A DNA stretch of 39,541 nt. It comes from a virus. Position numbers and translations under genes: made by a program. The DNA is taken from positions 1-39,541 of IMG/VR virus record IMGVR_UViG_3300028034_000031; one strand, written 5' to 3'. How positions within the stretch are numbered: position 1 is the first letter of the stretch; every line of letters starts with the position of its first letter. Below the pieces are notes generated by a model that saw only the letters and a list, made by a program, of their open reading frames with translations, made no database searches and was not told the DNA's origin. Positions 36,890-39,534 of this stretch are shown in pieces.

Positions 36890-37026
36890 AAGTTCTTTAG
36901 TATTGAGAGACGAAGGTATTACAGTTAACTTACCAGATGAATATAATGTATCTTTAATAGTTTATGCAGAAACAGCAGGGGATGCTGAGTTTATATTCAA
37001 GGTAAATGAAAATAGGTAAAAGAAAA

Positions 37027-37055
37027 ACCTCTCTTTAATTAGAGAGGTCTTTTTT
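37027..37055. terminator. bidirectional terminator between convergent operons
   Basis: A perfect 8-bp stem ACCTCTCT (37027-37034)/AGAGAGGT (37041-37048) with TTAATT loop is followed by CTTTTTT on the + strand and preceded by AAAAA, which gives a U run on the minus strand. It serves both the + strand lysis/tail operon and the minus-strand operon. Confidence 0.9.
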
Positions 37056-37250
37056 ATATATCACTATATCACCATACTTTTCAAATAAGTCCATAATCAT
37101 TAATATTAAAGATATTGCACCAAAAACTAACGCAAAAAAAGCGAATCCTAAATCTCTGACTAAGATTCTTTTAGACTTTTTAAATTCCTTTACTAATGAA
37201 TAAATAGCTGCTATTAACCCACAAATAGACCAACCTATTAGGTATATCAT
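37035..37250 (-). CDS. small membrane protein
   Basis: This encodes 71 residues on the minus strand; its start overlaps the ClpP-like stop by one base and its stop codon lies inside the bidirectional terminator. Two hydrophobic segments (residues about 2-20 and 36-58) flank a short basic loop. It is the last gene of the minus-strand operon. No family recognised. Confidence 0.6.
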   Translation of the reverse strand: MIYLIGWSICGLIAAIYSLVKEFKKSKRILVRDLGFAFFALVFGAISLILMIMDLFEKYGDIVIYKKDLSN

Positions 37251-37789
37251 TATTCCTCCCCTACTATCCTGTCAATTAAACCATATTCTAATGCTTCATC
37301 AGCAGATAAGTATCTATCTCTTTTTAAATCCTCTCTAACCTTCTCTATACTATTATCAGTTTCAAAAGCTAATAATTCAACAAACTTTTTATTTAATCTT
37401 TCATCTTCTTTAAGTACAATACTATTATCTACGTGTGATCCTCTTCCAATAGAATGTTGTAATCCATGTATCATAAATCTAGCATTAGGAAAAGCAACCC
37501 TTTCACCAGAACCACAAGCTGTAATTAATGTTCCTCCGCTCATTGCTGTACCTGATACTACTGTATGTATAGGAGTTTGTTCAAACTTAATATAATCATA
37601 TAAAGCTATCGTAGCATCGTATGTTCCACCATAAGTGAATAAGTATAGTGTAACAGCATCTCTTGGTTCTACTGTAATAACCTCATCTAATAAGTCTATT
37701 AGCTGCATAACATCAAACTCGTTAAGTGTTCCCGTATATCTTATTGTTCTAGTAGCTTCATTATATAATATTTCTGCTCTATCTTCCAT
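37250..37789 (-). CDS. clpP: ClpP-like serine protease
   Basis: Minus-strand ATG with GGAGTGG upstream. The 179-residue product has the ClpP fold signature: catalytic serine S84 in G-T-A-M-S-G-G-T, histidine H108 in R-F-M-I-H-G-L, and a D-R-Y-L-S-A-D-E-A-L-E-Y-G-L-I-D segment carrying the third residue (probably D158). Without a Clp ATPase encoded nearby it could act as a peptidase with the host ATPase, or in phage capsid maturation (S14 proteases do this in some phages). It lies in a different operon from the capsid genes, so the former is equally plausible. Confidence 0.9.
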   Translation of the reverse strand: MEDRAEILYNEATRTIRYTGTLNEFDVMQLIDLLDEVITVEPRDAVTLYLFTYGGTYDATIALYDYIKFEQTPIHTVVSGTAMSGGTLITACGSGERVAFPNARFMIHGLQHSIGRGSHVDNSIVLKEDERLNKKFVELLAFETDNSIEKVREDLKRDRYLSADEALEYGLIDRIVGEE

Positions 37790-37921
37790 TTAACCACTCC
37801 TCAGTGTCCTGTATTTCCATTCTAAGAGCCTTACTTGATTAGCATACCTATGATACCTTTAAAAGAATAAAACCTTTATATAGTCATCCTCAGTCTTCTT
37901 AGAAGTACTTATGTGTATTAT
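37790..37921 (-). other. intercistronic region without a clear gene
   Basis: The ribosome site of the ClpP-like gene lies at its left end. In-frame codons continue after the TAG of the zinc ribbon gene for about 19 codons (S-T-S-K-K-T-E-D-D-Y-I-K ...), but no start is visible. No strong hairpin is seen. Confidence 0.4.
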
Positions 37922-38071
37922 CTATTGCATAGCTTGTAGTACTTCACTTTTCATATCGTATCCACAATTAGTACATTCAATAGCAAATAACATCTTACCA
38001 TTCTTAATAATTTTCGGCTCCATTTCAACTTCACATTTGGGACATTCAACAACTTCTTTTTCTTTACTCAT
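37922..38071 (-). CDS. small zinc ribbon protein
   Basis: This encodes 49 residues on the minus strand, with AAGGAGG (at 38080-38086 on the complement) upstream of the ATG. Two pairs, C-P-K-C and C-T-N-C-G, about 19 residues apart form a zinc ribbon. The rest is acidic/basic with no other motif. A hairpin lies just upstream (38093-38120). Function unknown. Confidence 0.65.
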   Translation of the reverse strand: MSKEKEVVECPKCEVEMEPKIIKNGKMLFAIECTNCGYDMKSEVLQAMQ

Positions 38072-38092
38072 AAATTAATCCTCCTTAATAAT

Positions 38093-38120
38093 ATAGAGAG
38101 GTGAATTAACACCCCTCTAT
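38093..38120 (-). promoter_or_regulatory. intercistronic hairpin before the zinc ribbon gene
   Basis: ATAGAGAGGTG (38093-38103) pairs with CACCCCTCTAT (38110-38120), 11 bp with one mismatch, AATTAA loop. It is just upstream of a ribosome site with only a weak T-rich run, so RNA processing or regulation is more likely than full termination. Confidence 0.55.
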
Positions 38121-38436
38121 TACTTGGTAGTACTACCTTATTTGTGATTGCAGTAGTCTGGTCGGCGTACCCAGAATCTCTTTCCAGAACCTTATTCCTT
38201 AGCCTGTCAAACACAGGCAAGAGATGTCCTTAGCATTTATAACTCGTCAGTTTTAGGATAAGGTAGTGATGGTTGCCTGTTCCATCCTCTACTGCTGATA
38301 GTTTTACTTCCGTCATTTACAGAAGAGTAATGATTATCTCTCCCACCAGCTTAGTGGTTACGAGTAATCTCCCACACTTTTAGTGGTAACATAACTCCTT
38401 CGCTTAACTCAATACCATAATGAGCCTGTATCAGAG
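38121..38436 (-). ncRNA. candidate structured non-coding RNA
   Basis: This is 316 nt without a convincing ORF in the minus-strand operon, at about 41% GC over 38121-38400, above the neighbouring DNA. It contains several exact hairpins: palindrome GGTAGTACTACC (38126-38137); TCTGG/CCAGA (38157-38161/38171-38175); GCCTGT/ACAGGC (38202-38207/38213-38218); GATGG/CCATC (38268-38272/38282-38286). Two tandem CCAC/GTGG units also occur (38343-38357, 38372-38386). A long-range pairing of ATAAGGTAGT with ACTACCTTAT is possible. No tRNA, tmRNA or known intron core was recognised. Could also be degraded DNA; the many stems argue against it. Confidence 0.4.
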
Positions 38437-38532
38437 TTATTTAATTTCTCTTTTCTCATATAATGCTGCACTACAATGTACACAAAACTCTGTACCTGAC
38501 CAATTCTCATGTCCACAATCTTTACATTTCAT
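38437..38532 (-). CDS. tiny zinc ribbon protein
   Basis: This encodes 31 residues on the minus strand, with AAGGAGTGATTGTTA before the ATG. The cysteines C-K-D-C-G-H and C-V-H-C make one zinc ribbon. It lies just upstream of the non-coding region and after another tiny ORF. The good ribosome site and paired cysteines support it as real. Confidence 0.55.
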   Translation of the reverse strand: MKCKDCGHENWSGTEFCVHCSAALYEKREIK

Positions 38533-39051: not shown

Positions 39052-39534
39052 TTATGTGTCTGTAGAGCCAAATCCTTTGGTTCCTCTCATAGTCTCGAAC
39101 TGTTCAATATCATTTACTATATTAGGTTCTATCTGATAGGCATCTACAAATACAGCTTGAGTAATTGCATTGGAATAGTCTATTGTATAAGCTTCTTCTT
39201 CAGACCAATCCTCTGGATACTTGGCTATAATAACAGGTTTTTCTTTTGTATTATAGACTGCTACATGCCATTCTCCTAAATAGGATGAATCGACAAGCCC
39301 TGCTGATACTTTAATTCCTTTTGATCCTAAGCCACTTCTCTCTTTAAAGATAACACCATACTCTTCTGAGAAGTTACTTTTTATTCCTGTCGGTACTAGT
39401 TTTGTTTCTCCAGGTTTAATTTCTATGTAGTCTTCATCAAATGCTGGAAACACATCATATCCTATATCACCACTATGTGCTCTGTATGGACAAATTGCAT
39501 CCTCATGACATAGTTCAAAGTTTACTTTTATCAT
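39052..39534 (-). CDS. dut: dUTP diphosphatase
   Basis: This encodes 160 residues from a minus-strand ATG. The five dUTPase motifs are visible in order: 1, S-G-D-I-G-Y-D-V; 2, E-R-S-G-L-G-S-K-G; 3, A-G-L-V-D-S-S-Y-L-G-E-W; 4, Y-S-N-A-I-T-Q-A-V-F; 5, R-G-T-K-G-F-G-S-T-D. Motif 4 lacks the usual G-D-R and there is an insertion of about 20 residues between motifs 3 and 4. The trimeric enzyme converts dUTP to dUMP and keeps uracil out of phage DNA. It opens the minus-strand operon inside the window. Confidence 0.9.
   Translation of the reverse strand: MIKVNFELCHEDAICPYRAHSGDIGYDVFPAFDEDYIEIKPGETKLVPTGIKSNFSEEYGVIFKERSGLGSKGIKVSAGLVDSSYLGEWHVAVYNTKEKPVIIAKYPEDWSEEEAYTIDYSNAITQAVFVDAYQIEPNIVNDIEQFETMRGTKGFGSTDT

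Follow-up and report, generated by a model that had tools for sequence, protein, structure and literature searches.

Type III toxin-antitoxin systems (ToxIN, CptIN, TenpIN, and AbiQ) combine a small endoribonuclease with an adjacent structured, pseudoknotted RNA and have no protein antitoxin. To our knowledge, the type III RNAs described so far are repeats situated upstream of the toxin gene, with a terminator between the two. The Rfam motif abiF (RF03085), of the AbiF/RCd22 system, lies beside a phage-borne toxic protein and was later shown to neutralize that protein directly, both in cis and in trans (PMC12373285). Phage PhiTE carries pseudo-ToxI, an orphan RNA antitoxin that mimics ToxI and whose action against ToxIN has been shown experimentally (PMC3475682). 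The PBECR domains were described by Iyer et al. (2017; PMC5512222); the excerpted parts of that paper note solo phage versions, place their stress on injected polyvalent proteins, give His plus Ser/Thr as the active-site pattern, and name no RNA partner. Solo PBECR3 (PF18812) is a small predicted RNase of the BECR fold (barnase/EndoU/colicin/RelE).

The skipping-rope motif reportedly stems from the survey of 224 motifs by Weinberg et al. in 2017. In Rfam 14 it is entered as RF02924 and filed as an sRNA (PMC7779021), and its presence in phages has already been reported (PMC7779021, PMC8501573). The motif has been known since about 2017-2020, and neither it nor its occurrence in phages is new. 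No function or protein partner for it was found in the literature searched.

The DNA analyzed here (the window; 39,541 nt, IMG/VR record IMGVR_UViG_3300028034_000031) derives from a tailed phage and encodes a terminase, a portal, a tape-measure protein, PhoH, and a DNA polymerase. The closest named terminases are those of Bacillus phages (27% identity), and no similar DNA was found in named phages for the window, which contains no tRNA or tmRNA. Near its right end lies a minus-strand operon in which dUTPase is followed by ORFs of 97 aa and 31 aa (the latter a zinc ribbon), the RNA region, an ORF of 49 aa that resembles a zinc ribbon, ClpP, an ORF of 71 aa, and a terminator:

39052..39534, minus strand: dUTPase, upstream in the operon of the RNA (PF00692, E 7e-16)
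38437..38532, minus strand: zinc-ribbon ORF of 31 aa, upstream of the RNA (translation; Pfam zinc ribbon, E 7e-5 to 1e-4)
37922..38071, minus strand: CxxC...CxxC ORF of 49 aa, downstream of the RNA (sequence; weak zinc-ribbon matches; an alignment gap in the relative L077)
37250..37789, minus strand: ClpP-like protease, in the operon of the RNA (PF00574, E 1.7e-32)
37023..37052, minus strand: terminator at the end of the operon (12-bp stem plus T-run)

Relatives were found through the dUTPase and ClpP. L077 is close and carries the RNA, the contig of L129 stops before the position of the RNA, and L127 is more distant and has no RNA beside its dUTPase. Since the 49-aa ORF and its flank (window 37790-38080; L077:1385-1515) are missing in L077, the stretch just 3' of the RNA is a site of gene turnover.

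The RNA region starts directly after the stop codon of the 31-aa zinc-ribbon ORF (38437) and stops before the next ORF. A first-pass annotation, made from the letters alone, had described it as a possible new structured RNA within a minus-strand operon of a phage, with raised GC and no ORF. GC is indeed 0.41-0.43 over 38100-38399, compared with about 0.27-0.36 on the flanks, and no ORF of at least 50 aa lies inside, except for a partly overlapping 50-codon TTG frame (38068-38220, minus strand) and the start of a 63-codon plus-strand frame at 38420. None of 100 dinucleotide shuffles folds as well as the minus strand (z -3.4); the plus strand gives a weaker signal (z -2.2). The structured RNA and its operon setting are thus upheld, and the claim of novelty fails for the core. 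The covariance-model search against Rfam that the same annotation had recommended returned a full-length match to RF02924 (model positions 1-80 of 80) at window 38149-38296 on the minus strand, with 51.3 bits against a cut-off of 36.7 and E-values of 1.7e-9 in the whole window and 4e-11 locally. This is the sole Rfam match across the whole window; GOLLD, ROOL, and all other Rfam families fail. The statement that it matched no RNA class is overturned, and a new RNA class is ruled out for the core by the RF02924 match.

Membership of the window RNA in the skipping-rope family was also shown independently of Rfam. Degenerate patterns were used to pick out family members on contigs of viruses and bacteria, and a model (R1) built from 22 aligned members, with the window left out, scored 52.2 bits when searched back against it. 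Covariation in homologs, the second line of evidence that had been proposed, is extensive: among 87 aligned members 92% of cells are paired, a figure that drops to 69% for shuffles and does not exceed 47% for slid partners. Changes on both sides occur in 22 of 27 pairs, one kissing-loop pair among them, with shuffled and slid controls far lower. All nine pairs of the family's P1 covary (9/9). Between the P2 and P4 loops three inner kissing pairs are formed in nearly all of the 87 sequences, one of them with a compensatory type. The window keeps the family letters GAGG..GGAA..GGC and GAGAU..GG..GCC as well as the P1, P2, and P4 stems, and shares with L077 the longest P3 among the aligned members. 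In other members the matched length varies from about 74 to 144 nt, so that a variable P3 is normal for skipping-rope. The parts of the window RNA are as follows:

38149..38296, minus strand: full-length skipping-rope core with a 67-nt insert in P3 (Rfam and R1 scores as above)
38150..38295, minus strand: P1 closing stem, 38295-38289 with 38156-38150 (GCAGTAG/CTACTGC; family covariation and the window row of the alignment)
38268..38286, minus strand: P2 hairpin, 38286-38282/38272-38268, loop GGC at 38277-38275 (family alignment and covariation)
38180..38266, minus strand: P3 with insert, closing pair 38266-38180, inner hairpin with a compensatory change at 38251/38242 (Rfam alignment; L077 comparison)
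38157..38175, minus strand: P4 hairpin, 38175-38171/38161-38157, loop GCC at 38166-38164 (kissing pairs across 87 sequences)
38300..38436, minus strand: 5' extension with a closing hairpin, tandem CCAC/GTGG hairpins (38368-38390, 38339-38361), and a hairpin at 38308-38325 (folding, repeats, L077 comparison)
38093..38137, minus strand: 3' flank hairpins, GGTAGTACTACC (38126-38137) and AGAGGGGTG/CACCTCTCT (38093-38120) (sequence, L077 alignment)

The P4 loop GCC can pair with the P2 loop GGC to form a kissing pseudoknot, for which family support consists mostly of conserved letters, with one covarying pair. The hairpins of the 3' flank have no T-run and thus form no obvious terminator. The window RNA shares with a typical skipping-rope RNA the three-stem core, the conserved letters, and the P2-P4 pseudoknot, but adds the 67-nt P3 insert and, on its 5' side, about 140 nt that include the tandem hairpins, and has no PBECR3 beside it.

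The long P3 insert and the 5' extension are covered by no family and are possibly new. The extension has no Rfam match, and a second, degenerate skipping-rope copy within it was rejected at only 2.4 bits. Its tandem CCAC/GTGG units, noticed at first pass, do exist, with a period of 29 and 78% likeness; homologs sought by these units were found in the close relative L077 only, a match in L157 being discarded as chance in GC-rich, apparently coding sequence. Across the RNA, seven substitutions separate window and L077, and no pair is broken by them. Within core and insert the double change at 38251/38242 (A-U in the window, G-C in L077) keeps the pair, two other substitutions leave their pairs formed, and another falls at an unpaired position; both substitutions in the extension are unpaired. 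Non-coding DNA nearby is likewise only 1-2% diverged between the two phages, so conservation of the extension is not clearly specific to the RNA, and the comparison supports, without proving, selection on it. The long-range pair suggested earlier, ATAAGGTAGT with ACTACCTTAT, is present as letters (38258-38267 and 38132-38141), but the pairing itself was not confirmed; pairing of ATAAGGTAGT would come at the expense of the family's P3 stem (the inner AATAAGGT copy) and of a local hairpin. For the 3' copy that hairpin is GGTAGTA/TACTACC; L077 retains it in spite of a 9-nt insertion.

The typical setting of skipping-rope became apparent from its neighbors. Annotation of genes at skipping-rope loci found PBECR3/PBECR2 domains in 12/54 upstream and 4/60 downstream genes. 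Among viral records with the RNA, 11 of 50 had PBECR3, all 11 within about 150 nt of the RNA; in control viral records from the same pattern scan that did not have the RNA, PBECR3 passed the cut-off in 1 of 50, inside a 704-aa frame (Fisher p 0.004). The reverse test covered 291 Clostridia genomes, which were searched for PBECR3 at the protein level only and, in a scan of its own, for RF02924. The RNA lay behind 27 of 31 solo PBECR3 genes, always downstream, on the same strand, and 75-198 nt past the domain, with about 0.002 such neighbors expected by chance. Two further solo genes, L187 and L163, are accompanied by weak RNA matches (23.2 and 18.6 bits). From longer PBECR3 frames, the setting of the polyvalent proteins stressed in PMC5512222, the RNA is usually absent (present at 2/12 in these genomes). 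Seen from the RNA, 29 of the 55 copies in the 291 genomes have PBECR3 beside them, and the paired RNAs are confirmed by Rfam itself. Solo PBECR-type genes with no detectable skipping-rope RNA also occur, in L162 (G180) and L241 (G363); these may have a diverged RNA or another antidote.

Phage loci show the same arrangement. All eight phage PBECR3 loci carry the RNA (8/8, two of them new); the viral scan for PBECR3 was built on closer sequences, the first alignment having been too diverse. In a blind test on two Streptococcus suis phages, a skipping-rope match of 70 bits lay close behind the genes annotated as spbA, which are distant relatives (35% identity). Across all pairs the RNA is at the 3' side of the gene in 44/45, and a terminator follows the paired RNA in 39/44 (0.9 expected), while none was found between gene and RNA in 40 pairs. 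In four pairs (L018, L062, L105, and L115) the RNA is on the opposite strand, convergent and still at the 3' side. PBECR is conserved at 44/44 paired loci, the next real gene at 5, and no other conserved protein partner was found there. A link to packaging genes was rejected, as a few copies lie by small-terminase genes but most do not. From these neighborhoods the view that skipping-rope is the regular 3' partner of solo PBECR3 in bacteria, prophages, and phages is strongly supported. The pairing was not found in the literature searched, outside which the 2017 source paper of the motif falls, and the link is possibly new. None of the solo PBECR3 proteins tested has a model in PADLOC or NCBIfam.

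The protein is likely an RNase, as judged from alignment and modeling. Solo PBECR3 sequences share an invariant His and a conserved Ser/Thr, the pattern given for PBECR in the excerpts of PMC5512222. The structure model is confident, and its top PDB match in Foldseek is the RNase toxin BrnT (probability 0.98; E weak, best 0.054).

A likely RNase with a pseudoknotted RNA as its sole constant companion resembles a type III toxin-antitoxin pair, in which an RNase-like gene likewise stands next to a structured RNA (here 27/31, with a BrnT-like fold and the His and Ser/Thr residues). The fold differs, being ToxN (MazF-like) in type III and BECR in PBECR3, and so does the arrangement: the skipping-rope RNA is downstream and usually single, and its terminator lies behind the RNA, not between RNA and gene. 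For this reason the pair is best said to work like type III and is not filed as a member. AbiF/RCd22 differs further, its Abi_2 family protein and its RNA both being unrelated to the present pair and its RNA lying upstream (PMC12373285).

We consider it an even question whether the RNA is the type III-like antidote of the PBECR3 RNase, with the orphan copy of the window phage able to neutralize such RNases in trans. The folded RNA, with its three stems and kissing P2/P4 loops, would bind the RNase and block it, as type III RNA antitoxins do. At paired loci gene and RNA would be made as one transcript that ends at the terminator behind the RNA, as their sequences indicate. The window copy, placed in an operon of dUTPase, zinc-ribbon, and ClpP genes, would probably act in trans, as an antidote or decoy, against such RNases of host prophages or of competing phages. 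It resembles PhiTE pseudo-ToxI in being an orphan phage RNA; the decoy role is experimental there (PMC3475682), whereas for the window we infer it by analogy. More tentatively, skipping-rope and solo PBECR3 may make up an undescribed RNA-neutralized RNase system that is widespread in Clostridia, Streptococcus, and their phages, with virulent phages (949, phiL47, and possibly that of the window) carrying orphan, sometimes enlarged copies as anti-toxin decoys.

Orphan copies are frequent. No PBECR3, the toxin-like gene that a type III-like pair would need, was found in the window or on L077's 66-kb contig, which makes the window RNA an orphan. A recognizable PBECR neighbor is absent from about 26/55 chromosomal copies (about 47%) and from 58/75 in the phage-plus-genome set; a diverged PBECR accompanies three of the roughly 26 chromosomal copies, and the others lie by unrelated genes. 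With so many RNAs lacking such a neighbor, the role of the family may be wider. Orphan skipping-rope RNAs, unannotated and beside tRNA genes, also occur in lactococcal phages 949 and phiL47. In phiL47 the same RNA gene cluster, with several tRNAs, also holds an unannotated full-length tmRNA match (L244:2485-2833; RF00023, 113 bits).

It is unlikely that the window copy has a role unrelated to PBECR3, such as control of the dUTPase-ClpP operon or interaction with some other protein, or that it is a relic. Such a role would suit the absence of PBECR3 from window and L077 contig, the position of the RNA between two small zinc-ribbon ORFs, and a 5' extension unique to this phage group; however, other orphan loci have unrelated neighbors, which speaks against an operon-specific function, and a core that keeps the family letters and all stems, with changes in L077 that are neutral or compensatory, is no relic. 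A reading in which the RNA activates or directs the RNase, as its cofactor, guide, or preferred substrate, is rather unlikely. Genomic association is equally compatible with it, and RNA-guided or RNA-activated nucleases are frequent in mobile elements, but the common orphan RNAs suit an antidote better than an activator, and the conserved fold offers no variable guide besides P3. Quite unlikely is a cis-acting 3' end element that stabilizes or terminates the RNase mRNA and binds no protein: in its favor, the RNA lies 3' of the gene, mostly shares its transcript, and tends to have a terminator behind it, but the four opposite-strand RNAs and the predominance of orphans among phage copies (949, phiL47, window) speak against it, and the conserved unpaired loop letters and kissing loop exceed the needs of a stability hairpin. 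A novel phage RNA, large and ornate like GOLLD or ROOL, which the first-pass annotation had brought up and which size and hairpin density might suggest, is scarcely credible and is refuted for the core, which belongs to RF02924 and matches neither family.

The pairing gives a specific protein partner to an RNA family with no known function. If the antidote reading is true, it would add a BECR-fold branch to the RNA-neutralized toxins, explain virulent phages that carry the RNA alone as cases of counter-defense at the RNA level, and show how the solo PBECR RNases that were put forward as conflict effectors in 2017 can be held in check with no protein antitoxin.

Two further arrangements were observed among skipping-rope loci. 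At L123:6313-6708 a PemK/MazF-like gene, not PBECR, lies 120 nt upstream of the RNA, PemK matches occurring in 2/54 upstream genes. Two or three close copies of the RNA occur in L226 (G391:C70), L086, L135, L084, and L132, with three in a row in L226, and these clusters recall the repeats of type III antitoxin arrays.
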